Source: Henriciella sp. (GTDB taxonomy: Bacteria; Pseudomonadota; Alphaproteobacteria; Caulobacterales; Hyphomonadaceae). From it: 64,000 bases of DNA. Location of the stretch: positions 1 through 64,000 of the forward strand of contig JABSQB010000016.1 of assembly GCA_013214545.1 (NCBI GenBank), given 5' to 3'. Positions within the stretch are counted from its first letter, which is position 1, and every line of letters starts with the position of its first letter. This document shows positions 8,226-27,124 of this stretch, piece after piece. The translations under genes were made by a program, and so were the position numbers. The notes under the pieces were generated by a model that saw only the letters and a list, made by a program, of their open reading frames with translations, did no database searches and had not been told where the DNA came from.

Positions 8226-8228
8226 GGC

Positions 8229-9950
8229 TTAGCTTTCTTCCCCACCGAACCGCTGCGTCCATTCCGCGACCATGGCGTCTTCGATTTTTTGGAACAGCAC
8301 CGGCGGCGCCTGGATCGGCATTCCGTGCGGCAGTGCATCGAGCAGACCTTGATCGTCTGGCGATGGCCAGTTGCGGTTACCTTCAGGCACGCCCAGCGTG
8401 TCGAGAATGGTCTTGGCCGTATTCGGGATCAGCGGCTGCGCCACAATCGCGAACAGCGCCACAAGATTGAGCCCCGTACGAACGCCAACGGCGGCGGCAT
8501 CGACATCATTCTTGTATTTCACCCAAGGCTCGGCGCGGGTCAGATACTCATTCCCTGCGGCCCAGAGTGCGCGCGTCTCAGCGGCGGCTTTACGGAACTC
8601 CATCGCTTCATAGTGTTCTGTGATGCGCGTCAGGCTGGCTTTGAGTTCGCCCTCCATCCAGGCTTCGTCTTCGCCTCGTGTGCCGGCTGAGGGCAAGGCG
8701 CCATCAAACTTGCTGACAGTGTACCTGGTGATCCGATTGACGAAGTTGCCGAGCACATTGGCGAGGTCTGAATTGATAGCCGCCTGAAAACCTTCCCAGG
8801 TAAAGGCCGCGTCCGACCCTTCCGGCGCATTCGCCATCAGGTACCAGCGCCAGTAATCGGCGGGCAGTAGCTCCAAGGCCTGATCCATAAACACGCCGCG
8901 CTTCTGGCTGGTCGAAAACTTGCCTCCATACCACGTCACCCAGTTAAAGGCCTTCAGCTTATCGACAGCCTTCCAAGGTTCGCCCGAACCGAAAATGGTG
9001 ACCGGGAAAGAGACGGTGTGAAAGGCGACATTATCCTTGCCCATGAACTCAACATACTCGACATCGTCAGCGCCTTTGTCGGTGCGCCACCAGCGCTGCC
9101 AGTCGCCGCCATTGGCTTTGGCCCATTCTTCCGTCGCTGCAATGTATTCGACCGGCGCATCGAACCAGACATAGAAGACCTTATCCTCGAAACCGGGCCG
9201 CGGATTGCCGTCTGCGCCGAGAACCGGCACGCCCCATTTCAGATCGCGCGTAATCGCCCGATCGCGCAGCCCTTCATCCAGCCATTTGAGGGCAATCGAA
9301 CGCGCCAGCTGCGGCCAGTCTTTCGAGGCTTCCACCCATTCGCGGATCGTCTCCTGCATTTTCGATTGCAGCAAGAACAGATGCGCGGTGTCGCGGATTT
9401 CGATGTTGGTGCCGCCAGAAACGGCGGAGTACGGGTTTTTCAGATCGACCGGGTCGAGCAGGCGGCCGCAATTATCGCACTGGTCGCCGCGCGCTTTTTC
9501 GTATCCGCAATGCGGGCAGGTGCCTTCAACATATCGGTCCGGCAGGAAGCGCCCGTCATCGACGCTGTAAACCTGCTGCGAAACACGCTCTTCAATCAGG
9601 CCCTTTTCTTCAAGCACGCGGGCAAAATGTTGCGTTAGCGCCTTGTTCTCATCGCTGGAAGAACGACCGAACCAGTCATAGGAGAGGGCAAAGCCGTCGC
9701 CGGCTGCGCGCTGGATCTCATGCTGCTCATCGCAATAGGCCTGCACGCTCATACCTGCAGCTTGCGCCGCGAGCTCGGCTGGAGTGCCATGTTCATCGGT
9801 GGCGCAGATGTACAGCACATCGTGGCCCTGCAAGCGCTGAAAGCGTGCATAGACATCCGCGGGCAACATCGACCCGGCGAGATTTCCCAAATGCTTGATG
9901 CCATTAATGTAAGGCAAGGCAGAGGTGATCAGGATCCGGCGTTTACTCAA
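8229..9950 (-). CDS. metG: Methionyl-tRNA synthetase
   Basis: A 573-residue class I synthetase that charges tRNA-Met in the cytoplasm. The HIGH-type signature is H-L-G-N (residues 20-23), the zinc insertion has C-P-H-C followed by C-D-N-C (near residues 145-160), and the KMSKS-type loop reads K-F-S-T-S-Q (near residue 345), as in the archaeal/two-knuckle MetRS type. There is no C-terminal EMAP/Trbp111-like extension, fitting the ~570-residue form. The only usable start in frame is a TTG at 9950, since a stop lies two codons upstream. A small conserved gene follows 3 bases downstream. Confidence 0.95.
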   Translation of the reverse strand: MSKRRILITSALPYINGIKHLGNLAGSMLPADVYARFQRLQGHDVLYICATDEHGTPAELAAQAAGMSVQAYCDEQHEIQRAAGDGFALSYDWFGRSSSDENKALTQHFARVLEEKGLIEERVSQQVYSVDDGRFLPDRYVEGTCPHCGYEKARGDQCDNCGRLLDPVDLKNPYSAVSGGTNIEIRDTAHLFLLQSKMQETIREWVEASKDWPQLARSIALKWLDEGLRDRAITRDLKWGVPVLGADGNPRPGFEDKVFYVWFDAPVEYIAATEEWAKANGGDWQRWWRTDKGADDVEYVEFMGKDNVAFHTVSFPVTIFGSGEPWKAVDKLKAFNWVTWYGGKFSTSQKRGVFMDQALELLPADYWRWYLMANAPEGSDAAFTWEGFQAAINSDLANVLGNFVNRITRYTVSKFDGALPSAGTRGEDEAWMEGELKASLTRITEHYEAMEFRKAAAETRALWAAGNEYLTRAEPWVKYKNDVDAAAVGVRTGLNLVALFAIVAQPLIPNTAKTILDTLGVPEGNRNWPSPDDQGLLDALPHGMPIQAPPVLFQKIEDAMVAEWTQRFGGEES

Positions 9951-11199: not shown

Positions 11200-11275
11200 G
11201 CCCCTATAGCTCAGCTGGTAGAGCAACGGATTTGTAATCCGTAGGTCCGCGGTTCGAGTCCGTGTGGGGGCACCA
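11200..11275 (+). tRNA. tRNA-Thr (anticodon TGT)
   Basis: A full cloverleaf: the acceptor stem GCCCCTA (11200-11206) pairs with TGGGGGC (11265-11271), there is an AGCTC D-stem, an anticodon stem ACGGA/TCCGT around the loop TTTGTAA with anticodon TGT, the T-loop GTTCGAGTC, and an encoded CCA (11273-11275). Its 3' end forms the attachment site of the adjoining genomic island and is left intact by the insertion. Confidence 0.97.
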
Positions 11276-11276
11276 T
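11260..11276 (+). repeat. attL core: 17-bp direct repeat in tRNA-Thr 3' end
   Basis: CCGTGTGGGGGCACCAT at the 3' end of tRNA-Thr is repeated exactly at 26929-26945. Flanking bases differ on both sides. This is the usual core left by tyrosine-recombinase integration into a tRNA gene. Confidence 0.9.
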
Positions 11277-11378: not shown

Positions 11379-11479
11379 TGGTGACTTGATGAATTCCGGA
11401 TCTTACTGCTAACCTCGGTCCGCCTAGGTATAGTCAAACCTTGGGCATCGCGATGCTCTTCAATCTTGGAGACATCGTG

Positions 11480-11665
11480 ATGAGGATAATCTCGAAGCGC
11501 CAACTGAAAGAGTTAGTTTTGTACTCACCCCAACACATCGCACGGCTGGAAAAGGCGGGCAAATTCCCCAAGCGGGTTCAGCTTGGTCCAAACAGAGTGG
11601 GATGGGTTGAGAGTGAAGTGCTGGACTGGCTTCAATCAAGGCTGGAAGTCCGCGAGACTACCTAA
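11480..11665 (+). CDS. AlpA-family regulator / excisionase-like protein
   Basis: A 61-residue winged-helix protein of the AlpA/HTH_17 type: M-R-I-I-S-K-R-Q-L-K-E-L-V, S-P-Q-H-I-A-R-L-E-K-A-G-K-F-P as the recognition segment, then V-G-W-V-E-S-E-V-L-D-W-L. I choose the ATG at 11480, which has a GGAGA ribosome site 7 bases upstream, over the GTG at 11477 or the ATG at 11453. In P4-like elements AlpA proteins activate the integrase gene or act as excisionase. Here it lies at the end of the island opposite the integrase, near repeats shared by both ends. A strong hairpin follows. Confidence 0.85.
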   Translation: MRIISKRQLKELVLYSPQHIARLEKAGKFPKRVQLGPNRVGWVESEVLDWLQSRLEVRETT

Positions 11666-11687: not shown

Positions 11688-11718
11688 GAATGACCGGGTC
11701 ACTTTGGCCCGGTCATTC
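11688..11718 (+). terminator. Hairpin downstream of AlpA gene
   Basis: A perfect 11-bp stem, GAATGACCGGG (11688-11698) with CCCGGTCATTC (11708-11718) and a 9-base loop, lies 22 bases after the AlpA stop. No T-run follows, so it may be a Rho-independent terminator of weak type or an operator palindrome. Confidence 0.5.
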
Positions 11719-12046: not shown

Positions 12047-12589
12047 ATGGATCGAGATTTTGCGTTGTGGAGGGACGGTTCGGAGAAAGCACGCGAAAGA
12101 ATTGTGTCCAAGTATTACAATGAATTGAAGGTATTGGCCCGGCATCAGCTGCGCAGACAAAAGCGCACAGCTTCGTTAGATACGACGGACCTTCAACACG
12201 TAATGATAAGCAAAATTCTAGGCTCCGGAACTATCGCTCCAAAGAACAAAAACCAATTGTTGGGTCTTGCAGCAATTGTGATGCGCCGCGCTTTGGTTGA
12301 TATGGCGAGACGGAAAACGTCGCAAAAACGAGCTGCTATTTTGGTTTCGTTGGACGAAGATAAGAACTCCGTCTCGTCGAACGCTCAAAATTTGCTAGAG
12401 ATTCACAATGCTCTGATCAGACTAAAGGTGATCAGTCCGCAGCAACACGATGTTGTGGAATTGAAAGTGTTCGGCGGGCTCAGTAATCGGGAAGTGGCGA
12501 ATGTGTTAGGGATGAAGCTGCATAAGGTTAAGGAGTCTTGGGCCGCGGCGAGAAATTGGATGCGGGTCGTGATTGAAAATGGACTCTAG
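12047..12589 (+). CDS. ECF-type RNA polymerase sigma factor (kinase-linked subgroup)
   Basis: A 180-residue sigma factor of the Sigma70_ECF / TIGR02999-like group. Region 2 is the N-terminal half (A-R-H-Q-L-R-R with L-D-T-T-D-L-Q-H, then the R-R-A-L-V-D-M-A-R-R segment). Region 4 is the C-terminal half, with D-V-V-E-L-K-V-F-G-G-L-S-N-R-E-V-A as the first helices and the recognition helix before S-W-A-A-A-R-N-W-M. This subgroup is known to be encoded beside membrane Ser/Thr kinases and to be controlled by phosphorylation rather than by a classical anti-sigma factor. The kinase gene overlaps by 11 bases. Target promoters are unknown; adjacent island genes are natural candidates. Confidence 0.88.
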   Translation: MDRDFALWRDGSEKARERIVSKYYNELKVLARHQLRRQKRTASLDTTDLQHVMISKILGSGTIAPKNKNQLLGLAAIVMRRALVDMARRKTSQKRAAILVSLDEDKNSVSSNAQNLLEIHNALIRLKVISPQQHDVVELKVFGGLSNREVANVLGMKLHKVKESWAAARNWMRVVIENGL

Positions 12590-14921
12590 AAAACGCGCAG
12601 AGTTTGCAAGACTACTAGAAATCTCGAACGAGCTTGAGCGTCTTCCAGAACACGAGCGACTATCTTACATTGAAACTGCAACAGATGCAGACTCTCCACT
12701 ACGAACGCTAGCACTTCGATTGCTAAACACGCCTGAACTTGGGGCAGCGTTAATTGGCACGGATGCATTGCTACCAATCATAGATCAGATGACCACGCCA
12801 CAAACGATTGGTCCCTATACCGTGAGGAGGAGGCTTGGCGCGGGCGCTATGGGAGAAGTGTTCTTAGCCAGAAAGAGTAACGCAGATTATGAACACGACG
12901 TTGCGGTCAAGCTGTTACCGGCATTGAACCAGTCTCTGTCTTTGCGTGACCAGTTCAAATCTGAACGAAAAATATTGGCGAGTTTACGTCACCCAAACAT
13001 CGCCCAAATGTACGATGGTGGCGAGACTTCTGAAGGTACACCATACATAGTTATGGAGTATGTTTCAGGCTCCACGCTAGATGCAATGCTCGAAAAGGGA
13101 CAGCTCTCATTACGAGAGAAATTGAAGTGCTTTGAAGAAGTATGTGAAGCGATAGCTTATGCTCATAGTCAATCTATTTTCCACCGTGACATCTCTTCCA
13201 AAAATGTGATCGTAGACAATAAAAAATCCGCGAGGGTCTTGGATTTTGGAATCTCGTTTAACGACAAAACCGAATCGATGGGAGGGACTGCGTCTGACTG
13301 GGCAAAAAAAGATGTCGAAGATCTCGGTCGGCTACTGGGACTGTTATTGCAAGGCGAAAAGCCCTCTCGCGGAGAAGATCTAAGCGCCATTTCTGTTAAA
13401 GCCTGCAGCAATGATCCATATAACTCAGCGCGAGAGCTTCTCGACGACATTCGAGCTTATCAATCTGGGCGAACTGTAGCGGCGCGCCCTTCTTCAGTTT
13501 TCTTGCGAGCCAAACGGGGATTGCAACGGAACCACACAACGGCGATTTTGATTGCACTGTTGGCGGTTTCGATCGCGGCTGGATTGATATTATTTGGAGC
13601 CTCGGTCTCAACGCAAAATTCTTTAGCCGCATCAGCGCAAGAGAACTTGCAAAGAGCAAGAGACATTTCTGTTTCCCTAATTGATGGCTCCAACAAAAGT
13701 GATTTGTCCGGCATGTTACCCACTGAAGCGCGTTTGCTGATGGTTCAGCGTGCGATCGCGGTGTTGGAAGAACTGGAAGGTGACGATCCGAGCCCTGAAA
13801 CAAGGCTGGAGATAATTCGAGGTTACATCCGCCTAGCAGACGCTACGGGATTAGGCGGAGCTTCGAATAACGGGCAACGCCAAAAAGCAAGCGATTTACT
13901 GGCTCGCGCTCGGGAGATGATGGCCAACATCGCGCCGGATGTGCAAACTTGGGAACTTGCCAAGAGCATTCGTTTAGAGTTGCTCGTGACGTCTGCTCGC
14001 GACGAAATATTTTTGTTGGATGACAGTCGTTCAGCCACCGATTTAGTTTCGAGAGCGGAACGGTTGTTTTTACAGCTCGCTGAGCCCGACAAACGAGATA
14101 AACTTAATCTTGCGCACGGAAAAATGTCGATGGCGCGAGCGAACTACTATAGCGAAAACCCTGAAACTAGCATCAAATCCGCACTCGAAGCAGTCCGAAT
14201 TTTGGAATCTCTGGCTGAACAGCATCCGTCCGACGAACCCATCATGCTCGCGCACTCGGAAGCAAATTCGCACGTTGGGCAAGCGATCAGCTGGGCGCGG
14301 TACTATGCCGAACAGCCCTATGACGACGCACTGCCATACTATGCACATGGCATTAATATCGCCCAAAAAGCAATCCTTTCTGAGAGCATGGAGGCGAGAA
14401 GAGCATTAGCATTAGCATTGCTCAGAAGGGCAAATACCACATGCTACATGGACCCGCATCGTTCGCAGGGAATCCACGATCTAATTACCGCCGAGACACA
14501 AACGAAGGCGCTGGAACTGGTGGACCCCAACAATGCTCAGTTTGAGGAAATCGAGACGAACCGCCTGCTGCAGCTTGCAGACTGTTATAATCAGGAAAGA
14601 GATTTCGATCTCGCCAAAGAGGCAGCGTTGCGCGCAGTGACCCGGCAAAGAGAAACTTTGCTTAGAGACCCTAGCAGTCCAGCCCGTGTGAACCGAGTCC
14701 TGCACGCTGAAACGGTATTGCGGTGGATTCAGAACGAAGCAGGCGATGCTGCGGAACGTTGCGCAACAGCCGCGCGTATTAGCTCGCTTTGGAATACTTA
14801 TCATCAATTAGCAGAAGCAGAATTGCTAGAAAGTTGGTCTGAGTCTCAACTGGAGAATGAAAAGATCGTAGCGTTGTGCCTGGAGCGAGACTCGGCTAAT
14901 CCCACAATTCTAATCGATTGA
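12579..14921 (+). CDS. Membrane Ser/Thr kinase-like protein with helical-repeat domain, degenerate active site
   Basis: A 780-residue protein. An N-terminal ~75-residue helical region precedes a kinase domain (about 77-310) with a glycine loop L-G-A-G-A-M-G-E-V, the A-V-K lysine, an S-E-R-K-I-L helix Glu, H-R-D-I-S-S-K-N and D-F-G. The catalytic-loop Lys is Ser, and the segment after D-F-G runs straight from G-G-T into D-V-E-D-L-G-R-L-L, missing the usual Y-x-(A/S)-P-E stretch. One transmembrane helix (about 319-342) follows, then ~440 residues of alpha-helical, TPR-like sequence outside the cytoplasm. ATG at 12579 overlaps the sigma gene by 11 bases (TTG at 12573 is an alternative). Probably regulates that sigma factor; catalytic activity is doubtful. 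Its 3' end overlaps the convergent gene by 26 bases. Confidence 0.85.
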   Translation: MDSRKRAEFARLLEISNELERLPEHERLSYIETATDADSPLRTLALRLLNTPELGAALIGTDALLPIIDQMTTPQTIGPYTVRRRLGAGAMGEVFLARKSNADYEHDVAVKLLPALNQSLSLRDQFKSERKILASLRHPNIAQMYDGGETSEGTPYIVMEYVSGSTLDAMLEKGQLSLREKLKCFEEVCEAIAYAHSQSIFHRDISSKNVIVDNKKSARVLDFGISFNDKTESMGGTASDWAKKDVEDLGRLLGLLLQGEKPSRGEDLSAISVKACSNDPYNSARELLDDIRAYQSGRTVAARPSSVFLRAKRGLQRNHTTAILIALLAVSIAAGLILFGASVSTQNSLAASAQENLQRARDISVSLIDGSNKSDLSGMLPTEARLLMVQRAIAVLEELEGDDPSPETRLEIIRGYIRLADATGLGGASNNGQRQKASDLLARAREMMANIAPDVQTWELAKSIRLELLVTSARDEIFLLDDSRSATDLVSRAERLFLQLAEPDKRDKLNLAHGKMSMARANYYSENPETSIKSALEAVRILESLAEQHPSDEPIMLAHSEANSHVGQAISWARYYAEQPYDDALPYYAHGINIAQKAILSESMEARRALALALLRRANTTCYMDPHRSQGIHDLITAETQTKALELVDPNNAQFEEIETNRLLQLADCYNQERDFDLAKEAALRAVTRQRETLLRDPSSPARVNRVLHAETVLRWIQNEAGDAAERCATAARISSLWNTYHQLAEAELLESWSESQLENEKIVALCLERDSANPTILID

Positions 14922-16863
14922 GTGCCTGTTCATATTTCACTGTCGTAGGACTGGTGCAGCCCTCTTGATTGAGGAAACTCGCGTGATCCAATTCGTATCC
15001 TTCGAAGTTGGATTTCACTGCTTGGCGATAAAGAATGTAATTATTCTCGGGCGTTGACGTATCAACAAACGCTAACGCCTCGATTGGACCTCGATAATTT
15101 TCTACCCACTCGGCATTAAGTTCATCCAAGAACTCATCGCTGATTCGCTTAAACTTCGCGAAAAATTCATGTCTGACAGGAATCCGATCTCGGATGTATG
15201 ATTCATAGTAGTTTGTGATTGTTTTGCTTCCATCCCAATTTACAGTTTCCTCGTAGTCCACGAGACGATCATCGACCCATTCGTAAATAGGGCTGGTGCT
15301 CGGTAGATGCTGTCGGCAGACTTCAGAGTACTGGTAGTGATAGGTGTGGAAAATGATCTGGTTGATTTGTCTGTTGGCGTACGATCCGCCGCCAATTCTA
15401 CCGTTGTAAAGGTCAGCATAAAAGGCCTCCATATCGTCGTTTGCAAACTCGAATGATGGAAACGGTTTCGGCTGCCCATTCGCTACGGCTCGTGCATTAG
15501 CAAGCTCCAGTTCTTCTTGCTCAGCGCGGATCTGCTCCAGACCCTGAGTCATCAGGATTGCGTCCATTGGGCGTAAAAAAGCCACGATACCCACGTTCCA
15601 AGTTTTTTCGCCCCAACTCGTGGTTTCCAACCAACGGGCCAAGTATAGCCTTGTATGCACTTCTTGGCTTTGCGGCCCTACGGAATGTACCAGCATGAAG
15701 CATCCAGGTCCGATTTCAGGCGCCTCGAAACATTCATAACCCGGGATCTTTCGAATGTCGCTCCCTGAAGAGACTGTCTTGATTGTTTGTTCTGACCTAC
15801 GCACGCTTGTGACAATGCTGACGTGACCGCGGTTGAAGCTCAGGTAACCCATAGCACTTGCGATTGGTCCGCTGAAAGGATCCACATAGTCTTTCACTTC
15901 GTGAATGCTGAATGCCTGTTTGTGCAGATGCTCGCTCATTCTAGTTGTGACGAGCTCACCTCCGGAATAGGCGAAGTTTGAGCACCAGCTCTCCCGATCG
16001 AAACTAGATATACAGTGAGTGACAGCCGGAAGAAGAGCGTAGAAATGTGGTGGCGGGTTTGATTCACTCTGAGAAGGAGTAGGAGATTTTTCGCTCGATC
16101 CTGCACCAGGATCAGTATTAGTTTGTCCAACAATTGCTACCGCTTCAGCAACCACCGAAGCAGCATCGTCGGCAGCGCTCTTCTGAACTGATGATGTAAG
16201 CGAAGCGCGTGAATGAACTCGAGAATCGGTAAGTTTATAGACCCCTCCGGCCATCCGCTTGTATCCAACCACATCAAGCAGAAGATCGTTGTACCGGAAG
16301 GCTAATGACACGTATTGCGGACTTCGTTGCTGAACCGCTGGCGAAGATTGTACCCGACTCCAAACGCGAGATACAAACTCATTCGTTGTTACCGAGAGTG
16401 GATCAGCAACTTCGATGTCTGCGCAGACGATTGAGCCTCCCCCAGCTAGGCTACACTTCTCGAGAACGGTAATGGACGCCTCGTTGAAAACGAGCCTGCT
16501 AGGATCGGTCCAATTATCCGCTGCGCTTGTTCTCAGGTTTTGGATGGGTTGCTGACCGGCCATCACCCGCGCGACAATATTGATCGGGTCGGACCCGCAC
16601 TCAAATTGGGCAGCGATGCGCAGGGCAGCGACGAGTTCTTCAAACTCAGCCACAGACAACGCTTTATGTTTGGCATCGAGTTCTAGTGCCGTGACTTGAA
16701 CCATCAATGTACGATCACAGAGCGAATTCGAACGCTCTAAAGCCGCGTAATGTGAATTGGTACGCGCCACCGTTTGTGCATTGGAGTTTTGTGCCAAAAA
16801 AGTCGCGATCGAGATCGATAGAATCGACGCAACCGCCATTCTAAGTGCTGATAACATTTGCAT
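14896..16863 (-). CDS. Large secreted protein of unknown family
   Basis: A 655-residue protein with a Sec signal peptide (hydrophobic core, cleavage probably after N-S-N-A-Q near residue 30). It has a first domain to about residue 230, a low-complexity Ser/Pro linker around 250-275 and a second domain rich in aromatic residues with several cysteines, suggesting disulfides in the periplasm or outside. A late aromatic stretch reads I-I-F-H-T-Y-H-Y-Q-Y-S-E. I recognise no family or catalytic motif. It lies tail-to-tail with the kinase-like gene (26-base overlap) and 26 bases downstream of the glycine-zipper lipoprotein gene on the same strand, so those two probably form one operon. A surface or sensing role with the kinase is inferred from context only. 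Confidence 0.6.
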   Translation of the reverse strand: MQMLSALRMAVASILSISIATFLAQNSNAQTVARTNSHYAALERSNSLCDRTLMVQVTALELDAKHKALSVAEFEELVAALRIAAQFECGSDPINIVARVMAGQQPIQNLRTSAADNWTDPSRLVFNEASITVLEKCSLAGGGSIVCADIEVADPLSVTTNEFVSRVWSRVQSSPAVQQRSPQYVSLAFRYNDLLLDVVGYKRMAGGVYKLTDSRVHSRASLTSSVQKSAADDAASVVAEAVAIVGQTNTDPGAGSSEKSPTPSQSESNPPPHFYALLPAVTHCISSFDRESWCSNFAYSGGELVTTRMSEHLHKQAFSIHEVKDYVDPFSGPIASAMGYLSFNRGHVSIVTSVRRSEQTIKTVSSGSDIRKIPGYECFEAPEIGPGCFMLVHSVGPQSQEVHTRLYLARWLETTSWGEKTWNVGIVAFLRPMDAILMTQGLEQIRAEQEELELANARAVANGQPKPFPSFEFANDDMEAFYADLYNGRIGGGSYANRQINQIIFHTYHYQYSEVCRQHLPSTSPIYEWVDDRLVDYEETVNWDGSKTITNYYESYIRDRIPVRHEFFAKFKRISDEFLDELNAEWVENYRGPIEALAFVDTSTPENNYILYRQAVKSNFEGYELDHASFLNQEGCTSPTTVKYEQALNRLELWD

Positions 16864-16889
16864 TTATTGATCCTTAAGAGGGAAGTAGG

Positions 16890-17345
16890 TCATACGACCT
16901 GCCACGCTCCATCCTCGCCCTTACAAGCAGTCACGCTGTCCTGTTTGGTAGTTCCATCAGCAAGCGACACCGTTTGTTGGATCTCGCGGCAAGTTTTATT
17001 CTCCTCTGTTTCTACAGTCTTGATCACTTTAGCCGAACCCGAATTTCCAGTTTCCGTATTCGACCATTTCTTGGTCTCGCCAGTTTCGGCGGACTGAACC
17101 GTCGACTCGGCCACGCTTTCTTTCTCGCTTTCGTCCAACAGCTTACCGATTTCGCGCCCAACGAATGATCCTGCTGCGAGGCCTGCCATTGTCCATAGGG
17201 TTTTGTTTTCATCCGCAATTTGATTGCCAAGCAAACCGCCAATTGCAGCGCCAGCGCCCGTTCCGATGGATGCAGCTGAGTCTATTGTTTCGCACCCGGA
17301 TAGGAGAACGATTGCGGCTACTGAAGAGAGAATTGGAGATTTCAT
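16890..17345 (-). CDS. Glycine-zipper (17-kDa antigen-like) lipoprotein
   Basis: A 151-residue outer-membrane-type lipoprotein: a signal ending L-L-S-G-C (lipid Cys near residue 18), then a glycine-zipper pair, G-T-G-A-G-A-A-I-G-G-L-L-G and A-G-L-A-A-G-S-F-V-G-R-E-I-G, as in Rickettsia 17-kDa antigen/SmpA-like proteins. A Glu/Ser/Thr-rich stretch leads to a small C-terminal beta domain with two cysteines (T-C-R-E-I and T-A-C-K-G). Relatives sit in the outer membrane and support envelope integrity or inhibit periplasmic enzymes. It is upstream of the secreted-protein gene. Inside this island it may be the envelope partner of the sigma/kinase module (inference). Confidence 0.8.
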   Translation of the reverse strand: MKSPILSSVAAIVLLSGCETIDSAASIGTGAGAAIGGLLGNQIADENKTLWTMAGLAAGSFVGREIGKLLDESEKESVAESTVQSAETGETKKWSNTETGNSGSAKVIKTVETEENKTCREIQQTVSLADGTTKQDSVTACKGEDGAWQVV

Positions 17346-17753
17346 TTGATGTCCCGAACGTGTTTTCAGGCCTCGTGATTAAGGCCCCTAATTACTAGAA
17401 CGCAAAATTCTCGGAAACTGGTCATGGAAAATGACTCTAGCATCCCGAAATTTGGTTGAGATACATCGACGTTTCTATGAAGACATCCAAGGACGCCATC
17501 ATAGTCTATTGTTCATGAGGATACCTTAGTAGTTTCTGTATCCCCATAAACACTGCGGCTTGATCCCCAAACAAGCCTTCTCATTTCTGACCATAGCCCC
17601 ACTTTTGAACAAAGACTAGTTGCGTGACTTCATATGTATTTTCCATATGAACCCACCCTCACCACCCATAATACAAAGCCTTTTATTGCGCTTGCGAAAT
17701 AAAAGGCTTTGCGCTTATCTATCTGTATAAAGATAGATTACCGGGGGGCGGGA
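17346..17753. promoter_or_regulatory. Divergent intergenic region with three successive inverted repeats
   Basis: The first ~280 bases hold nothing I recognise beyond the expected lipoprotein-gene promoter. Then come three perfect inverted repeats: TTCATATG/CATATGAA (17629-17636 and 17644-17651, 7-base gap), a 14-bp pair CAAAGCCTTTTATT/AATAAAAGGCTTTG (17674-17687 and 17698-17711, 10-base gap), and ATCTATCT/AGATAGAT (17717-17724 and 17731-17738, 6-base gap). A GGGGGGCGG ribosome site leads to the ATG at 17754. They may be operators, a transcript hairpin, or part of a transfer origin. Confidence 0.7.
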
Positions 17754-18269: not shown

Positions 18270-19404
18270 ATGGCCCTTCATTTTGGACCCCGACTACACG
18301 CACTGACGCATCGGCTGTTCAAGTCAAAAGATGAGACGGAAACGGCTGATCTGTACAACGAAGTTGCAGCACTGTTCGCTCGCGTCGGTATTACGGATGA
18401 AGAAGAGCGACAGGCCGTCATCCGCGCACTTGCTCAATGTGTTTCTGACGCCTTCGAGATCGACACCGCGACACCTTTAGCTTGTCAGATTGAGACGCTC
18501 GCGCAACGATTGCTCGATTATGAGTTGATCTGGTGGCTGCCTGATCTCGATTGGTCAAAAAAACGAGAAACCTCCGAATGGTGGGAAATCCGCGAGGAAC
18601 TCAATCGACAACGTGGGTTCTTAGTCGAGTTTGATCAAACATTCGATCTCATCGTCGATGCATTGCTGATCATGCTCGAGCCATTCGCCAAAAATGGGCC
18701 TCAGACGCACGATTCTGATCAATTGGATGTTGTGGTCGAGACACCGCTTCTTAATCGTGTCAGCGACCTTCCTGATGCTCTGGAGCGCACGCTGGGTGTG
18801 CCGAGCGCACAAGAACTGGTCGACGCCAACCTGTTCACGCGGTTGCGGGATCAAATTGAGCGGAATCTAATCGTGGCCTCGGGAGGAAATCTCGCAGATC
18901 CTCGGTCTTTCTCTAAGTCACCCGTGCTACCGTCTAAATCATCTATCAAAGACCAGTCTGCGCTGGCCGAAGCGTATTTAAACGCAACGCCTCTGATAGA
19001 TTTCTTGAATCAATCAACGACCTTCGCGATTCCAACGGACACGCGATTTGAACATACGCATATGGTCGCTGGTACTGGTCACGGGAAGTCTCAGACACTT
19101 CAGTATCTAATCGCACAAGACCTACCGGCTGTAGCGGCAGGAAAGCGATCAGTCGTGGTAATCGACAGCCAGGGCGATCTTATCAAGACAATTTCCAGGC
19201 TAAAGGATTTCGCACCCGGCGAGCGCTTACATGACCGACTGGTGTTGATCGATCCAACGGATGTCGAATTTCCCGTGTCATTGAATTTGTTCGATGTTGG
19301 AAAAGAACGGCTTGAAGGGTATGAGGCGCTTGAACGCGAACGACTGACCAACTCAATTCTCGAATTGTATGACTTCGTGCTCGGTTCGCTACTCGATGCC
19401 GCGA
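18270..19404 (+). pseudogene. Conjugation-type (VirD4/TraG-like) ATPase, truncated by IS
   Basis: The first ~378 codons of an ATPase. The N-terminal ~235 residues are helical and unassigned. Then T-R-F-E-H-T-H-M-V-A-G-T-G-H-G-K-S gives a Walker A loop near residue 267, V-V-V-I-D-S-Q-G-D a Walker B-like strand near 296, and L-V-L-I-D-P-T-D-V-E-F-P a following strand. The pattern matches conjugative-transfer/DUF87-like ATPases of integrative elements, usually 650-800 residues as I recall. Here the frame runs into an IS3-family element and stops at 19421. None of the three frames to the right of the IS continues the domain, so the 3' half seems deleted and the protein is probably inactive. Confidence 0.75.
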
Positions 19405-19415
19405 TGACCCGCCCC

Positions 19416-20291
19416 CTATAGCGCAGCCAGTTTCTGTGTAGTGTTTTGAGCCTGGATTTGGAAGGGCAATTTCGTTTCCGGCGCTGGCGGTCGGTAGCCG
19501 AGTGATGAGTGGGGCCGCACCGTATTGTAGTGCTGACGCCATTGTTCGATCAGTGTCCTGGCTTCTTTTATCGAGCAGAAAATCTCCCCGTTGAGCAGCT
19601 CGTCTCTGAGCTTGCCGTTGAAGCTTTCATTGTATCCATTCTCCCACGGACTGCCCGGTTCGATGAAGAGGGTCTGCACGCCGATCCGGTCAAACCATTC
19701 GCGCAGAGCATTGGCGGCAAACTCCGACCCGTTGTCGGACCTGATATATTTCGGCACTCCATGCTTCAGCATTGCGTCTGCAACGGCGTATAGGACGTCA
19801 CCAGACCGCAGCTTGCGTTGCACTTCGATGGTCAGGCATTCGCGGGTGTACTCATCGATCAGTGTCAGCATGCGGAACGCGGTGCCATCATGCGTTCGAT
19901 CTAGGACGAAGTCATAGGCCCAGACATGGTTTTTGTGCTCTGGCCTCAGCCGCATGCACGATCCATCATTCAGCCATAGCCGTTTTCGCTTCGGCTGCTT
20001 AGCTGGGACCTTCAGCCCTTCACGCCGCCATATCCTGGCAACCCGTTTGTGGTTCACATGCCAGCCCTGAGTGCGCAGCAATGCTGTGATCCGCCGATAG
20101 CCATAGCGACCGTACTGACGAGCAAGGCCAATGATTGCTGATGTCAGAGCGTGCTCATCATCAGCGATCCTCAGCCGGCGCCATTGTGTAGACCGTGTCT
20201 GGCCAACACATCGACAAGCCCGGCGCTCGGAAACGCCGAGCTTTTTCTTGACGTGATCAACAAACCTGCGGCGACGCTCAGGGCTTAGAAG
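19416..20291 (-). CDS. IS3-family transposase OrfB (DDE integrase domain)
   Basis: About 291 codons in the -1 frame relative to orfA, with no convincing start of its own near the top; it is most likely made as an OrfAB fusion by frameshifting at 20291-20297. It begins L-L-S-P-E-R-R-R-R-F-V, then an HTH_21-type segment (R-Y-G-Y-R-R-I-T-A-L-L) and the rve integrase core with the DDE residues: W-A-Y-D-F, R-S-D-N-G-S-E-F and the E in N-G-Y-N-E-S-F-N-G-K-L-R-D-E. It ends with the typical R-P-H-S-S-L-G-Y-R-P-P. The catalytic triad looks intact, so the element may still be active. Confidence 0.92.
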   Translation of the reverse strand, partial: LLSPERRRRFVDHVKKKLGVSERRACRCVGQTRSTQWRRLRIADDEHALTSAIIGLARQYGRYGYRRITALLRTQGWHVNHKRVARIWRREGLKVPAKQPKRKRLWLNDGSCMRLRPEHKNHVWAYDFVLDRTHDGTAFRMLTLIDEYTRECLTIEVQRKLRSGDVLYAVADAMLKHGVPKYIRSDNGSEFAANALREWFDRIGVQTLFIEPGSPWENGYNESFNGKLRDELLNGEIFCSIKEARTLIEQWRQHYNTVRPHSSLGYRPPAPETKLPFQIQAQNTTQKLAAL

Positions 20292-20563
20292 TTTCCCGAG
20301 GCAGCTTCACGCAAGATCGATTTATCCAGTTCCGCATCAGCGAGCAGACGCTTCAACCGGGCGTTCTCTTTCTCCAGCTCTTTGAACCGTTTGGCCTGAT
20401 CCACTTTCAGACCGCCATATTCTTTGCGCCAACGGTAGTAGGTGACATCTGACACTCCAAGATGACGGGTAACATCCGCCACTGTCTGACCTTGTCCGAT
20501 CAATACATCCGCTTCGCGAAGCTTACGGATGATCTCCTCGGTTGTGTAACGTTTTCGAGCCAT
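20285..20563 (-). CDS. IS3-family OrfA (helix-turn-helix protein)
   Basis: A 92-residue protein opening A-R-K-R-Y-T-T-E-E-I-I-R-K-L-R-E-A, with a helix-turn-helix (V-A-D-V-T-R-H-L-G-V-S-D-V-T-Y-Y-R-W-R) and a leucine-zipper-like end (L-E-K-E-N-A-R-L-K-R-L-L). In IS3 elements OrfA binds the terminal repeats and also forms the N-terminal part of the OrfAB transposase. The slippery heptamer lies just before its stop codon. Confidence 0.92.
   Translation of the reverse strand: MARKRYTTEEIIRKLREADVLIGQGQTVADVTRHLGVSDVTYYRWRKEYGGLKVDQAKRFKELEKENARLKRLLADAELDKSILREAASGNF
20291..20297 (-). other. Programmed -1 frameshift site GGGAAAC
   Basis: On the minus strand the last orfA codons read G-GGA-AAC, a canonical X-XXY-YYZ heptamer. 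Slipping back one base puts ribosomes in the orfB frame, which is open from here to 19416. Frames were checked by hand. Confidence 0.85.
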
Positions 20564-20600
20564 AATTCTCTCCTGAACAGCCTATTTCTATAACCAAAAC

Positions 20601-21692: not shown

Positions 21693-21959
21693 ATGCTCTC
21701 GAACCTTGAAATATCTTTGATTTACAATGCTGAAATGGCGCCTGCGAGTGATAACTCATATGATGTGACCCTCCTCGGGACACTTCTCGAACTCTTGGGT
21801 TTCATGGAATATTCGAATTCGAATGAACTTTCGGAGAATCAAGGATCAAAAAAATTCGAAATAATAATAGAACAGCGTGGGATGAGTAATGTCTTGCCAA
21901 ATATAGAATTTTGTTCGGGCCAAACATTCGATGGATTATTTTTCTCATCAATGGAATAA
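21693..21959 (+). CDS. Small ORF directly upstream of gajA
   Basis: An 88-residue acidic open frame (L-S-N-L-E-I-S-L-I-Y-N-A-E-M, later T-L-L-E-L-L-G-F-M-E-Y) ending 7 bases before the preferred gajA ATG. That spacing is compatible with translational coupling. No ribosome site is obvious before its ATG and I know no homologue, so it may be only an open leader. If real, it could be an accessory component of the neighbouring defence pair. Confidence 0.35.
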   Translation: MLSNLEISLIYNAEMAPASDNSYDVTLLGTLLELLGFMEYSNSNELSENQGSKKFEIIIEQRGMSNVLPNIEFCSGQTFDGLFFSSME

Positions 21960-21966
21960 TGCCTCA

Positions 21967-23826
21967 ATGAAAGTCGCGAGAATAAAAATCAATAATTTCA
22001 GAGGTGTCAGCGCTGCAGACATTCTTTTACCCGAGCACGGCGTCCTTATAGGAGACAATAACACCGGGAAGACGACGATTTTGGAGGCACTTGATTTAGT
22101 GCTTGGCCCAGACCGACTAAATCGGCGGCCACCAATAGATGAGCATGACTTTTTCCAAGGGGATTATTTGCCAAAGAGAGCAGCTCACAATGACGCAGAG
22201 CAAGAACAGGTTGAAGAGACCGATGAAGCCGATGCTACAATTGACGGCGACCCAGGAAATGAACCCGAGCAAGACGCAGAGTCCTACACCGTTGCTCCGG
22301 AGATTCAGATCGAGGCCACTATCATCAATCTAACGGCTGAACAGAAGTCGCGGTTTGGCGATCGGATTGAGTTTTGGGACTCTGAAACAAGTACGATTTA
22401 TAATGAGGCAAACCCTGAAGGAGTTGATGCAGAAAACATTGTTCCAGCCGTCCGAGTCACGTTTGTCGGAAAATACGAACCTGAAGAAGACGATTTTGAG
22501 GGTAAGACTTACTTTAGTGGAAGTTTGATTGATGGAGAAAGTCCCGAGCAATTCTACAAACGTGATAAACAGCTTTGTGGTTTTCTTTATCTACGGACAA
22601 TTCGAACCGGCTCGCGTGCTCTCAGTCTAGAACGCGGGAGCCTGCTGGACATTATTTTGCGCCTTAAAGAGATCCGACCCCAAATGTGGGAGGACACGAT
22701 AGGAAGCCTGAGTGCGCATGCAGTAGCAGCCGATCCATCGATCGGATTGAGCGACGTACTGGGAAGCATAGATAACGCGCTAAAAAAGTACGTACCCAAA
22801 GAATGGGGTGCTGAACCTCGATTAAAGGTTTCAAATCTGACTCGCGAGCACCTTAGAAAGGTGATCACTGCGTTCATAGCTACTGGAGAAGGTGATCATC
22901 TAGCGCCGTTCTACCGCCAAGGAACCGGCACGATTAATATGCTCGTCTTGGCCATGCTCTCGATAATCGCTGAAAGCAAGCAAGAAGTGATTTTCGCTAT
23001 GGAGGAACCCGAGACAGCTATTCCTCCATATGCCCAAAAAAGAATCGTTCATGAGATTCGCAAGTTGTCATCTCAAACCTTGTTCACTTCGCACTCACCG
23101 TATGTGTTGGAAGAGTTTGATTTATCAGAGACCATCGTGCTGGATCGTGACGTCAACGGTTGTTTGAAACAATCTGAGATTACGTTGCCGGATAGTCTCA
23201 AGTTGAAAAAATACAGACAAGACTTTCGGTCTAGATTTTGTGAAGGGTTACTCGCGCGTAGAATTCTGGTGGCGGAAGGAAATACTGAGACCGACGCATT
23301 TCCGGTTGCCTGTCTGCGATTGGCAGAACTCGATCCCGAGCAATACTCATCGTTGGAGTCATTGGGGGTGGCTGTCGTTAACGCTAGCGGAGAGAATAAT
23401 ATTCCAGGCTTAGCAAAAATGTACAGCAGGCTTGATAAACGAACCTTTGCGATCTGCGACACACAGGATGCTGCGAACAAAGCACTTATCGAGGCTCAAG
23501 TAGAAGAACTATTTATGCACCCTGAACCAACATTTGAGGCGTTGATCTTAAATGGCACTACGGATGCTGCGCTTGAGCGGTTCGCTGGGGATATCGATTG
23601 GCCTCCTCATTTAGTCGCCAACTTTCCTGATCCGGTGGCGGATGCTCGGAACGCTCTGACCGCTTATTTTAAATGGTCGAAAGGGAACTGGGGCGTAGCC
23701 GACTTTTTGGCTCAGTGTTCTGAAAACGAAATACCCGAGTGGATTAAAAACGCAGCAAAAAAGCTGGCAGAGTTATGTGATCCGGCTCCAGTTTCGGAAG
23801 AAGGTGCTGCAGCTGCGGCAGATTAA
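21967..23826 (+). CDS. gajA: Gabija protein GajA: OLD-family ATPase/TOPRIM nuclease
   Basis: A 619-residue protein starting M-K-V-A-R-I-K-I-N-N-F-R-G, the standard OLD/SMC-like start, with Walker A G-D-N-N-T-G-K-T-T at residues ~29-37. An ABC Walker B region I-F-A-M-E-E-P-E-T lies near 340 and a C-terminal TOPRIM nuclease domain follows: V-A-E-G-N-T-E-T-D near 435 and I-C-D-T-Q-D near 496. A strongly acidic low-complexity insert (~70-108) is unusual. I prefer the ATG at 21967, since an upstream ATG at 21931 would overlap the small ORF. In the known Gabija system GajA is a nucleotide-sensing, sequence-specific nickase forming a complex with the GajB helicase, encoded here 10 bases downstream. 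It is an anti-phage system by homology. Confidence 0.88.
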   Translation: MKVARIKINNFRGVSAADILLPEHGVLIGDNNTGKTTILEALDLVLGPDRLNRRPPIDEHDFFQGDYLPKRAAHNDAEQEQVEETDEADATIDGDPGNEPEQDAESYTVAPEIQIEATIINLTAEQKSRFGDRIEFWDSETSTIYNEANPEGVDAENIVPAVRVTFVGKYEPEEDDFEGKTYFSGSLIDGESPEQFYKRDKQLCGFLYLRTIRTGSRALSLERGSLLDIILRLKEIRPQMWEDTIGSLSAHAVAADPSIGLSDVLGSIDNALKKYVPKEWGAEPRLKVSNLTREHLRKVITAFIATGEGDHLAPFYRQGTGTINMLVLAMLSIIAESKQEVIFAMEEPETAIPPYAQKRIVHEIRKLSSQTLFTSHSPYVLEEFDLSETIVLDRDVNGCLKQSEITLPDSLKLKKYRQDFRSRFCEGLLARRILVAEGNTETDAFPVACLRLAELDPEQYSSLESLGVAVVNASGENNIPGLAKMYSRLDKRTFAICDTQDAANKALIEAQVEELFMHPEPTFEALILNGTTDAALERFAGDIDWPPHLVANFPDPVADARNALTAYFKWSKGNWGVADFLAQCSENEIPEWIKNAAKKLAELCDPAPVSEEGAAAAAD

Positions 23827-23836
23827 TGCGACGACC

Positions 23837-25627
23837 ATGGAGTTATCGAGCGAGCAGCAAGAAATCTTGGACATCGATGGGCACTTGCTCGTTAAGGGTG
23901 GTCCCGGCTCAGGCAAGACCACGATCTCTATTCTCAAGGCATCGCAAATCGCGCTGAGTAAACTTACGCCCGGCCAAAAAATTCTTTTTCTTAGTTTTGC
24001 TCGAGCCACCGTGGCCAGAGTGACTCAAGCGATTGATGCGGAGAGTTCAATTTCTAAGGAAGCAAAAGCCAGAATTGAAGTTGAAACATATCACTCGTTT
24101 TTTTGGCGTATCCTGAAAACGCATGGGTACCTGTTAGGGCTTCCGATACCAGTTAAGCTGCTGTCACCATCTAATGAGGCGATAGCTTTAGCTGGGGTAC
24201 GGGCCGATTTTCCCAGTCGTGGAATTTCGGAAGAACAAAAAAAAGAGAAATCAAAAAAAGAGGAATTAGAGAGGCGGCGATTAGCATTTGATGAGGGACT
24301 TGTTTGCTTCTCGTTGTTTGCTGAATTTGTGGCAGATCTGATAGGACGAAGCGATAAAGTACGTCGTTTGATTTCGGACAAATTCCCGTTCATCATCCTT
24401 GATGAGTTTCAAGATACAGATCAAAATCAATGGCGTGTGATGAAGGTTCTTGGTGTGGGCTCCTGCATTTTGGCTCTCGCCGACCCCGAGCAAAGGATTT
24501 TCGAATGGATTGGCGCAGATCCAGAACGACTGGATCATTTTGAATCAGAGTTCTCGCCAACCCTGATCGACCTCGGGTCAGCAAATCATCGAAGCGGGGG
24601 AACAGATCTCGCCACGTTCGGCGATCATATACTTACAGGCAAATTTCAAGACGACCCTTACGCTGGTTTGTATTTTGAGACTTATCCATCGAACAAGAAC
24701 CAAGCTCTGACCAAGGTGATAACAACTGCACTTCAGGCAAGAACGCGTTTGCTTAGAGATGGCGCGAAAGACTGGTCGATTGCGATACTTGTGCCGACAA
24801 AAGCAATGACCCGGATTGTGTCAGACAAGTTACGTCATCCTCCCGCTGGACTATCCGCAGTTTCTCACTCTGCGGCGGTAGAAATGGAAGCGGTGGTTTT
24901 GGCTGCAGAGCTGATAGCGTTCTCACTGGAAGTATCGGGCGGTAGTAGTGAAACAGCATCCTTTCTGTCGATGATAGAGGAGTTCTATCTCGGCAGAGGT
25001 GGAGACAGTCCGACAAAAAAGGACTTAAAATCTGCTGGGAAAATTCGCAGTGATTTTGCCGCGTTCACCAAGGCGATTAGCCAGCAAAAAAAACCGCGAA
25101 AAACGAACTCAATACCATCTATTTTAGCCGCCTTTGAATTGTTGAGCAGTTTGGACTTGAGTGGAAACCCCGAAGTAGACTGGCTCGAAGTGAGGAAGGT
25201 TCTTGAGGGGTGCGGTAGTCCACAATTGGTCGAAATTGCTGATGAAGCAAAGAACGTGCGGCTCTTGGAGCGTGGCAGTGAATTAAGACAGGCCCTTGCA
25301 CAATTGTGGAGAGATGGTGGTTCCTATGCTGGTGCATTGGAGGTTGTGCGTGGAGCTTTTGTTCAGGAGCATTTCTCATCCTCAAATCGGCCCGAGCAGG
25401 GGGTAGTTGTCATGAACATGCATAAAGCAAAAGGAAAGCAATTCGATGAAGTCATCATTTTTGATGGCTGGGAAAGATTTCGGAACAGAATTGTTCGCCA
25501 AAACAAAGCTGAGAATGTTTCAGGACAGGTTCGACAAAATTTTAGAGTAAGCGTTACGCGCGCGAAGACTCGAACAACAATTCTGACTCCGCAAAATGAT
25601 GCATGTGTGTTGCTTGTTGCAGACTAG
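23837..25627 (+). CDS. gajB: Gabija protein GajB: UvrD/PcrA-like helicase
   Basis: A 596-residue superfamily 1A helicase: Q-motif region S-S-E-Q-Q-E-I-L, Walker A K-G-G-P-G-S-G-K-T-T near residue 20, Walker B I-I-L-D-E-F-Q-D-T-D near 186, motif IV-V segment N-M-H-K-A-K-G-K-Q-F-D-E-V and motif VI R-V-S-V-T-R-A-K near the C-terminus. It is somewhat longer than the ~490-residue GajB I remember from Bacillus. The start at 23837 sits 10 bases after the gajA stop; an earlier in-frame ATG at 23777 would overlap gajA. It probably senses DNA ends or ssDNA produced by GajA during infection. The integrase gene converges 13 bases downstream. Confidence 0.88.
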   Translation: MELSSEQQEILDIDGHLLVKGGPGSGKTTISILKASQIALSKLTPGQKILFLSFARATVARVTQAIDAESSISKEAKARIEVETYHSFFWRILKTHGYLLGLPIPVKLLSPSNEAIALAGVRADFPSRGISEEQKKEKSKKEELERRRLAFDEGLVCFSLFAEFVADLIGRSDKVRRLISDKFPFIILDEFQDTDQNQWRVMKVLGVGSCILALADPEQRIFEWIGADPERLDHFESEFSPTLIDLGSANHRSGGTDLATFGDHILTGKFQDDPYAGLYFETYPSNKNQALTKVITTALQARTRLLRDGAKDWSIAILVPTKAMTRIVSDKLRHPPAGLSAVSHSAAVEMEAVVLAAELIAFSLEVSGGSSETASFLSMIEEFYLGRGGDSPTKKDLKSAGKIRSDFAAFTKAISQQKKPRKTNSIPSILAAFELLSSLDLSGNPEVDWLEVRKVLEGCGSPQLVEIADEAKNVRLLERGSELRQALAQLWRDGGSYAGALEVVRGAFVQEHFSSSNRPEQGVVVMNMHKAKGKQFDEVIIFDGWERFRNRIVRQNKAENVSGQVRQNFRVSVTRAKTRTTILTPQNDACVLLVAD

Positions 25628-25640
25628 AAGGCTGGAGCGA

Positions 25641-26789
25641 TCATTTTGTTTCGGTGAGCAAGTAGGAGCTCCATTCGTTCAAAAGTGCTCGACGTTTGTC
25701 AAACAGATCGCTGCGCTGATATGCTCGCTCTACCGAGTTACCGATTACATGGCCCAGCGCGCTCTCTTTTGTTTCCCAATCGGCATCAGTCTCGTTTTCT
25801 GCCCAAGTTCGAAACGTTGCCCGCAGACCATGCGGACGCGCAGACATTTTTGCGCGTTTCATAAATGTGGACATGGCATTCGCTGATAGTGCACCTCCCT
25901 TTGGGGACGGAAATAAAAACTCATCCGTAGATCGTGTTTTGGCGAGCGCCATGACACTAAGGGCCTCATCCGATAGTGGAACACGTATGGCCTTACCAGT
26001 TTTGGTGCGATCTTCGGTCAGATGCCAGGTTCCATCGCGTACTTCGTAAAAGGTAGCGAAACGTACTTCGCTCGAGCGCGCGGCAGTAAGCAGTAGGAAT
26101 CGCAGTGCAAGCGCCGTTGTGGTGTCGTTTCCGACCAATGCTTGGTAGAACGCTGGTGCATTTTGATAGGGTAATGAAGGGATATGTTTCGCTTCGTGTC
26201 GCCTTTTGCCAAGCAATGCTTTCATTTTCATGATTGCCTGAAGGTCGACGTCTAGATCTAGCGCTGCAGCATGCTTCAACGTTAGATTCATCCGGTTCAT
26301 CGCCTTGCGCGCTGCATCTGGCTTAGAGTGCCAGATCGGATCGAACACGGTACGCAAGACATGTTGATCGATGTCTTCAATCGACCTTTGTCCGATTTTC
26401 GGAATGACGTGAGTTTTTAGAGGAGATAACCAACGACCGGCTTTGCCGTCATTCTTCAGCTCGGCCTGTCGTGCTCGGAAGCAATCTTGTATGGCCGCTT
26501 CTACCGTCATTCGCTGCGGTCGGTGTCTGAGCTTAGATCTTTCTTCTATCGGGTCTATTCCATCCCGAAGTTTCTTTCTCGCTTCAGCTGCTCGCTCACG
26601 TGCTTCCGAGATCGAAACGTCGGGCCAAGAGCCCAGACCCATCTCACGGCGCTTACCCTGAATGACGAGGCGAACGATCCATTTGCCAGCGTCCTTTGAT
26701 CGCTTACACAACCAAAGTCCTTGTCCGTCAGCGTACTTCCCAGCTGGCGCTTTCTTGGTCTGCATGTAGGAGAGGTAATGGCGCTTCAT
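25641..26789 (-). CDS. P4-type tyrosine integrase of the tRNA-Thr island
   Basis: A 382-residue integrase. The N-terminal DUF4102-type arm-binding domain carries Y-A-D-G-Q-G-L-W-L and K-W-I-V-R-L near the start, then M-G-L-G-S-W-P-D-V-S. A SAM-like core-binding domain follows, and the catalytic domain has the Arg in T-A-A-R-S-S-E-V-R, H-G-L-R-A-T-F-R-T-W, the His of L-G-H-V-I-G-N and a late Y of E-R-A-Y. It shares distinctive S-L-P-Y-x-x-A-P-A-F-Y and H-G-x-R-A-T-F-R-T-W segments with the integrase at 60712. Its gene begins 139 bases from the right-hand attachment repeat and reads into the island. It is expected to recombine the 17-bp tRNA-Thr core. Confidence 0.95.
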   Translation of the reverse strand: MKRHYLSYMQTKKAPAGKYADGQGLWLCKRSKDAGKWIVRLVIQGKRREMGLGSWPDVSISEARERAAEARKKLRDGIDPIEERSKLRHRPQRMTVEAAIQDCFRARQAELKNDGKAGRWLSPLKTHVIPKIGQRSIEDIDQHVLRTVFDPIWHSKPDAARKAMNRMNLTLKHAAALDLDVDLQAIMKMKALLGKRRHEAKHIPSLPYQNAPAFYQALVGNDTTTALALRFLLLTAARSSEVRFATFYEVRDGTWHLTEDRTKTGKAIRVPLSDEALSVMALAKTRSTDEFLFPSPKGGALSANAMSTFMKRAKMSARPHGLRATFRTWAENETDADWETKESALGHVIGNSVERAYQRSDLFDKRRALLNEWSSYLLTETK

Positions 26790-26928: not shown

Positions 26929-26945
26929 CCGTGTGGGGGCACCAT
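26929..26945 (+). repeat. attR core: copy of tRNA-Thr 3' end
   Basis: An exact copy of the 17 bases at 11260-11276, including the encoded CCA. Only this fragment of the tRNA gene is present, marking the far end of the island. Confidence 0.9.
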
Positions 26946-27124
26946 CAAAGCTGTTGCCGTTATTGATGTGTATCGATTTTGGTGCTTCGACTTTTTCGTC
27001 AAGATGCCTATGCTGTTGGACGTTTCCCGATAGTTTGCTCTAGGAAAGATCACAATCGCCGAGTGTGGTTTCCGGACATAGCAGCCCCCGATTCAGGCGG
27101 ACGAGAGAAGCGAACCTCCACAAC

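Follow-up and report, generated by a model that had tools for sequence, protein, structure and literature searches.

What does a sigma factor gene that overlaps the gene for a kinase-like receptor do on a mobile island, and do the two convergent genes for exported-type proteins that face this pair belong with it? We addressed these questions in a 64,000-nucleotide stretch of Henriciella sp. (assembly GCA_013214545.1, contig JABSQB010000016.1; "the window" denotes this whole stretch), where the four genes form a compact block at positions 12047 to 17345. We lean toward reading the block as a strongly diverged, island-borne ECF43-type switch to which an exported cargo is linked, in which the kinase-type receptor would control the sigma factor and the sigma factor would drive surface genes. 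The block comprises the following.

12047..12589, + strand: extracytoplasmic function (ECF)-type sigma factor, TIGR02999/ECF43-like, with DTTD at residues 45-48 in the DxxD region
12579..14921, + strand: Hanks-type kinase-like membrane receptor with an N-terminal kinase domain without APE, one transmembrane segment and an all-helical, tetratricopeptide repeat (TPR)-like C-terminal domain
14896..16863, - strand: 655-amino-acid exported-type orphan protein with 10 Cys and a signal-type N-terminus by inspection
16890..17345, - strand: glycine-zipper lipoprotein with a 17-kDa-antigen-type C-terminal domain (PF16998, PF05433)

Organization of the block and proposed mechanism

Sequence and domain matches bear out the layout given in the original prediction, which had been made from the sequence without database searches: four genes at these positions, a sigma/kinase overlap and a convergent exported pair. 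The overlap is 11 bases (12579-12589), with the kinase ATG at 12579 and the sigma stop codon at 12587-12589; the 655-amino-acid gene ends within the final 26 bases of the kinase gene, and the lipoprotein gene lies 26 bases upstream of the 655-amino-acid gene on the same strand. From this arrangement and the comparisons below, we infer that the receptor controls the sigma factor, that the sigma factor transcribes the exported genes and that their products have roles at the surface. The periplasmic TPR-like domain would meet a signal that alters the cytoplasmic kinase-type domain, which would control the co-encoded sigma factor; once active, the sigma factor would direct RNA polymerase to a small surface regulon that most likely includes the convergent lipoprotein/655-amino-acid operon, and the products would function on the cell surface. 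We consider control through binding, or through a weak or atypical phosphorylation of sigma residue Thr47, about as likely as a phosphorylation switch of the kind attributed to the sigma factors EcfP and EcfK, because the kinase lacks the catalytic-loop Lys and the APE segment, which binds the substrate, and the sigma factor carries both DxxD Asp residues.

A diverged sigma/kinase pair of the ECF43 kind

ECF43 sigma factors provide the known example of a sigma factor activated by being phosphorylated directly. The window sigma factor scores 133.9 bits against TIGR02999 (cut-off, 126.15), a model that we take to cover ECF43, matches PF07638 at 2.4e-31 and has regions 2 and 4 only, as expected of ECF43 sigma factors; it is the sole TIGR02999 sigma factor over the cut-off in its own genome, which holds five weaker matches besides. 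Judged by sequence, the sigma/kinase pair is of the ECF43 type, as are EcfP/PknT and EcfK/PknS, a placement based on TIGR02999, the kinase pairing and motif comparison. The original prediction of an undescribed module is not supported for the sigma/kinase part, a kind already present in PMC13147305 and PMC8999054. What is new is a kinase without the catalytic-loop Lys and APE/P+1 segment beside a sigma factor with Asp at both DxxD positions, yet with the Thr kept, as well as the exported-protein genes that adjoin the nearest relatives found, at three remote loci.

Similar pairs are common in the order: of 200 genomes, own genome included, 79 hold matches to the kinase, many of which cover the kinase domain only. 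From these matches, 60 stretches were selected, in which a related sigma open reading frame (ORF) lay no more than 500 bp from 49 of 64 kinase ORFs; pairs were counted from six-frame stop-to-stop ORFs, and one of the 49 (L041) relies on an odd antisense overlap.

Residues 45-48 of the window sigma factor read DTTD where ECF43 reads QTTA. Thr47, the third residue, thus occupies the phospho-position, and the uncharged residues that replace the acidic ones of the region 2.2 DxxD motif in ECF43 are here Asp at both ends. The first position is Asp in none of 54 other sigma factors, the fourth is Asp or Glu in 42 and the third is Thr in 21; according to PMC13147305, 15.8% of ECF43 sigma factors bear a negative charge at the fourth position. 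The Glu of the QE that follows DxxD, kept in 49 of the 54, is Val in the window sigma factor, so the acidic surface has not simply been restored to a canonical form. The window branch is 3.23 long in a sigma tree built without L033 and L202.

The receptor matches PF00069 at 7.6e-29, limited to profile positions 1-146 of 263, and has a single hydrophobic segment near residues 318-346, with numbering from the ATG at 12579. It keeps the Gly-rich loop, the VAVK Lys, the HRD Asp, the Asn and the DFG of Hanks kinases. The catalytic-loop Lys is replaced (HRDISSKN versus HRDxKxxN), as it is in 37 of the 64 related kinase ORFs, and the APE/P+1 segment is missing from the window kinase alone of 59 aligned, with no Pro-Glu in the region; the stretch between DFG and the Asp of helix F is only 20 residues long, versus 33-50 in all 58 relatives. 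Pro-Glu stands at the APE position in 56 of these 58; L046 and L083 are altered there but of normal length. The nearly invariant Arg of subdomain XI, which pairs with the APE Glu, has no counterpart in the window kinase in an 18-sequence alignment; among the 58 relatives, 56 match a loose regular expression for it. An AlphaFold2 model from 18 sequences (mean pLDDT, 79; pTM, 0.53) gives a kinase fold followed by an all-helical C-terminal domain, and the best PDB sequence match of the kinase part is the PknS kinase domain (9EED; 8.3e-28), which ranks eighth in Foldseek. PADLOC matches of the receptor to PD-T4-6 and MAD6 cover the kinase domain and were taken as generic. To judge from these residues, phosphorylation of a substrate in the normal way is disfavored by the loss of the APE segment, and the retained ATP-binding residues together with Thr47 argue against a dead switch.

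Phosphorylation, binding or decay

Across the 49 pairs (L033-L092), the two partners vary together. Thr occupies the phospho-position in 15/18 partners of Lys-bearing kinases versus 5/31 partners of Lys-less kinases (that is, it is lost in 3/18 and 26/31, respectively), and the fourth residue is acidic in all 31 partners of Lys-less kinases versus 7/18 partners of Lys-bearing ones; the association between Lys and Thr gives a Fisher value of 8e-6, uncorrected for shared ancestry. The window pair, which has no Lys and keeps Thr, stands outside this count and opposes the trend. The Lys-less kinases mostly read HRD[LI][TSA]P.N, and their partner sigma factors are mostly of the STGD type. Taken at face value, these motifs suggest that the branch with Lys-less kinases may not use the ECF43 phospho-switch. 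A bolder extension, which we regard as speculative, is that the phospho-switch has been replaced in one branch of the order, with Lys-less kinases, Thr-less acidic sigma factors and a receptor that would act as a nucleotide-dependent binding switch; the window pair would then be an extreme member, carried on a mobile island with an otherwise unknown exported surface cargo of its own.

An ordinary ECF43 phosphorelay, in which the kinase would phosphorylate Thr47 as PknT does EcfP and the lipoprotein and 655-amino-acid genes would be unrelated island cargo, is an unlikely though serious alternative. It gains from Thr47 itself, third in DTTD as in QTTA and STTA, and from the retained Gly-rich loop, VAVK Lys, HRD Asp, Asn and DFG, but the APE/P+1 segment has gone from this kinase alone among those aligned and its catalytic Lys is replaced. 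The passenger half of this alternative accords with the lack of a 655-amino-acid homologue at any of the 60 sigma/kinase loci and with a lipoprotein domain found mostly elsewhere; against it, exported-type genes adjoin all three nearest relatives found, as described below.

We hold equally tentatively the view that the receptor is a pseudokinase-type anti-sigma factor or tether, binding the sigma factor at the membrane and releasing it on a signal, while transferring little phosphate or none. The absence of the APE segment, the subdomain XI Arg and the catalytic Lys would be expected of such a protein, and the Asp at both DxxD positions, as well as the Thr-less, acidic partners of Lys-less kinases, point the same way. 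However, the ATP- and Mg-binding motifs are kept, the co-variation is uncorrected for ancestry, and the window sigma factor retains Thr47 and has lost the Glu that nearly all others keep; moreover, kinases of other families, such as Rio and Bud32, are active without an APE segment. That the pair is decaying cargo, no longer functional after an in-frame deletion of the APE segment, is improbable: the shortened stretch after DFG, the long branches of both proteins and a putative IS3-type element interrupting a neighboring island gene would fit, but all four genes are open at full length, DFG, the HRD Asp and the ATP Lys are retained, and concomitant loss of the subdomain XI Arg fits adaptation better than one recent deletion.

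Other gene sets adjoin pairs of this kind. A conserved divergent set beside the pair in L047 (10256-16189) encodes a transmembrane-type protein, a 554-amino-acid zinc-ribbon protein, an FHA protein, a second zinc-ribbon kinase and a papain-type protease, in an order similar to that in L059, L062 and L078. On an Eleftheria terrae plasmid (L216; NZ_CP106953.1, typed as mobilizable), two kinase genes come after an ECF-type sigma gene, and a PEP-CTERM gene lies roughly 1 kb further on; here, too, such a pair resides on a mobile element.

Exported-type genes beside related pairs

The reading of the locus as a sigma/kinase switch with linked exported cargo draws support from the closest relatives found. 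In a FastTree tree of the kinases, the window kinase forms a clade with those of L033 and L034 (local support, 1.0; window and L034 alone, 0.58), every member of which adjoins exported-type genes. The L033 sigma gene (6950-7516) overlaps the kinase gene (7500-9890) by 17 bases, and the kinase gene is followed by two more genes: the first product has a VPLPA-type tail that matches weakly, under the cut-off, and the second is a 614-amino-acid exported-type protein. L034, whose sigma gene lies at the end of a separate contig (L202), encodes a VPLPA-CTERM protein over the cut-off, an SH3 protein, proteins of 313 and 582 amino acids with signal-type N-termini and an ankyrin protein; the C-terminus of the SH3 protein matches the window lipoprotein (BLASTP, 5e-9; phmmer, 2.5e-9). 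A search with the L034 sensor domain recovered a further relative, L237 (G233), a short contig on which a sigma gene, an 11-base overlap and a kinase gene precede a gene whose product ends in a VPLPA-type tail (20.9 bits, below the cut-off of 25.35) and resembles its L033 counterpart (9.3e-9). By a home-made pattern, genes of this sort occur within 6 kb of a kinase only in L033, L034, L048 and L049 among 59 loci. The individual exported proteins change from locus to locus: the 582-amino-acid protein of L034 has no relative in 62 genomes of the family besides its own neighbor gene, and the 614-amino-acid protein of L033 has partial relatives only, in 6 others of these 62. In this pattern, the sigma/kinase pair is retained and the exported genes next to it vary; the window lipoprotein/655-amino-acid operon fits the pattern, in convergent orientation. 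Since exported-type genes stand beside the three nearest relatives found, one of them with a relative of the lipoprotein domain, the membership of the exported pair in the module gains support.

The lipoprotein carries a lipobox (LLSGC, by inspection) and a glycine zipper and matches PF16998 at 6.1e-8 (32.9 bits; cut-off, 26.6) and PF05433 at 25.3 bits (cut-off, 24.2). Its C-terminal domain occurs in 8 of 200 genomes of the order, own genome included, at nine places, two of them in the own genome. Between the lipoprotein gene and ORF 17709 lies a near-perfect 18-nt inverted repeat (17674-17711; 94%).

The 655-amino-acid protein, with a single hydrophobic window at its signal-type N-terminus, was described originally as a secreted orphan, and its orphan status stands: it matches nothing in Pfam, NCBIfam or PHROGs. 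Pattern-based searches of genome contigs, covering close relatives only, and of viral contigs gave no homologue beyond the own genome, and in 105 genomes of the family searched at E values up to 1 only short fragments appeared, at E 0.026 or worse and with stops in 6 of 12, which is chance level. A single phmmer match in the PDB (E 0.51) and two weak PADLOC matches (0.003 and 0.015) were likewise taken as chance, and an apparent likeness of its N-terminus to the exported-type proteins of L034 failed by BLASTP, phmmer and hhalign. Profile searches and structure prediction, which had been proposed as a check, yielded no match and a single-sequence AlphaFold2 model with a pLDDT of 34, which is unusable. 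The suggestion that this protein is the sensor partner found no support.

Several observations weigh against linkage of the exported pair to the switch, or against the placement on which the comparison depends. No homologue of the 655-amino-acid protein was found outside the own genome in 299 genomes of the order, 385 genomes of the class, plasmids or phages, and neither phmmer nor hhalign shows any similarity of the protein to its exported-type counterparts in L033 and L034. The exported-type genes of the relatives lie downstream on the same strand, whereas those of the window are convergent, and L036 and L035, whose kinases branch off next in the tree, lack a comparable exported set by inspection. 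The window kinase branch is long (1.63 in FastTree), making its position less certain; L237 was not placed in the kinase tree; and the sensor half has no match at E 1e-3 in 385 genomes of the class except the own genome. Regular occurrence of the lipoprotein apart from a sigma/kinase pair had been named in the original prediction as a point against a module, and its C-terminal domain indeed lacks such a neighbor at seven of the eight non-window places (six other loci, with L208 starting at a contig end, and the second copy in the own genome); the eighth (G094, L034) is the second gene downstream of the L034 kinase, which the tree places closest to that of the window. Finally, the regions upstream of the sigma and lipoprotein genes share no bipartite promoter motif beyond expectation (3 seen, 2.57 expected).

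A motif, C[CG]GGTCA, does occur around the starts of 16 of 27 related sigma genes, for example, in L062, L068 and L084, and is often followed by an AT-rich stretch; in 300 shuffles the mean was 1.35 and the maximum 6, the sequences being related to one another. It is a candidate promoter element of this sigma group. The motif is absent upstream of the lipoprotein gene and occurs three times 5' of the window sigma gene (11691-11715). There it falls within a strong hairpin after alpA (11688-11718; z score, -4.2), possibly a terminator, which contains the GGTCA element; we do not claim these copies, inside a hairpin and more than 330 bp from the sigma gene, as its promoter.

The mobile island

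The block lies within a 15.7-kb island at a tRNA-Thr gene, bounded by repeats of the tRNA 3' end and carrying an integrase gene, an AlpA gene and the Gabija genes, as follows.

11200..11275, + strand: tRNA-Thr(TGT), the integration site
11260..11276, unstranded: left copy of the attachment (att) repeat, CCGTGTGGGGGCACCAT, 17 bp, identical to the right copy and taken from the end of the tRNA gene
11441..11665, + strand: AlpA-type regulator (PF05930; 4.8e-11)
21931..23826, + strand: GajA of Gabija (9.6e-259)
23777..25627, + strand: GajB of Gabija (3.9e-219)
25641..26789, - strand: tyrosine integrase with an Arm-DNA-binding domain
26929..26945, unstranded: right copy of the att repeat, a 17-bp perfect repeat

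These features confirm the predicted setting of the block in a mobile island with Gabija. We found no evidence for the further suggestion that the block senses envelope damage or phage adsorption, and Gabija is simply an island neighbor. The G+C content of the island is 49%, versus 55% for the window. Within the best 80 loci, from which records very close to the own genome may be excluded, the highest identities of the metG protein are 95%, with a Hyphomonadaceae metagenome-assembled genome (MAG), and 94%, with a Henriciella MAG. In L094, which has the most similar metG, the island is absent from the tRNA-Thr site: within about 90 bases of the tRNA gene, sequence begins that aligns at 74% to window positions 31360-32401, a TonB-receptor region. 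Because tRNA-Thr and the TonB-receptor region are joined closely in L094, the island of the window is an insertion.

Within the island, a putative IS3-type element (19416-20581, by inspection) truncates the open frame of a gene at 18270-19418 with weak similarity to TrwB/HerA-type ATPases. Past the right att repeat, positions 26946-31300 hold acyltransferase- and sulfotransferase-like genes (by inspection) that are absent from the tRNA-Thr/TonB junction of L094; this segment may have inserted separately at that site. Toward the right end of the window, a second tyrosine-integrase-like ORF (60712-62076, by inspection) perhaps marks another island.

Comparison with known systems

The setting is that of islands integrating at tRNA genes, with att repeats of the tRNA end, an integrase and an island-free site in the relative L094, and the lipoprotein resembles the 17-kDa surface antigen and glycine-zipper lipoproteins (PF16998, PF05433) in having both the zipper and the C-terminal domain. 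The loci L033, L034 with L202, and L237, all from the same order, resemble the window in that sigma and kinase genes overlap, by 11-17 bases, and have exported-type genes next to them; unlike in the window, the kinases retain an APE segment, the exported-type genes share the strand of the pair and some products carry VPLPA-type tails. Among the matches listed in the open-license literature, we found no ECF43 pairs with exported or PEP-CTERM neighbors and no such APE-less kinases, which is weak evidence, as the ECF43 source paper, reportedly that of Iyer et al. in 2020, lies outside that scope. A kinase without APE paired with a sigma factor bearing both DxxD Asp residues is a direct natural test of how strict the phosphorylation rule is, and the co-variation of Lys and Thr suggests that a whole branch may work otherwise. 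The locus, if read correctly, would also show a sensor/sigma switch traveling on a defense-bearing island with a surface-protein cargo.

Two described pairs come closest. EcfK/PknS of Xanthomonas citri likewise combines an ECF sigma factor with a Hanks receptor kinase that has a cytoplasmic kinase domain, a transmembrane segment and a periplasmic TPR domain, and according to PMC13147305, EcfK is phosphorylated by PknS, carries the motif QATE where the window sigma factor has DTTD, and controls a type VI secretion system. In PknS, the catalytic Lys and an APE/SPE motif are present, unlike in the window kinase. EcfP/PknT of Vibrio parahaemolyticus, as presented in PMC8999054 and PMC8103513, is likewise a sigma/kinase pair with no anti-sigma factor and with Thr at the phospho-position and serves polymyxin resistance; its motif, STTA, has no acidic residues, whereas the window sigma factor has Asp at both DxxD positions around the same Thr.

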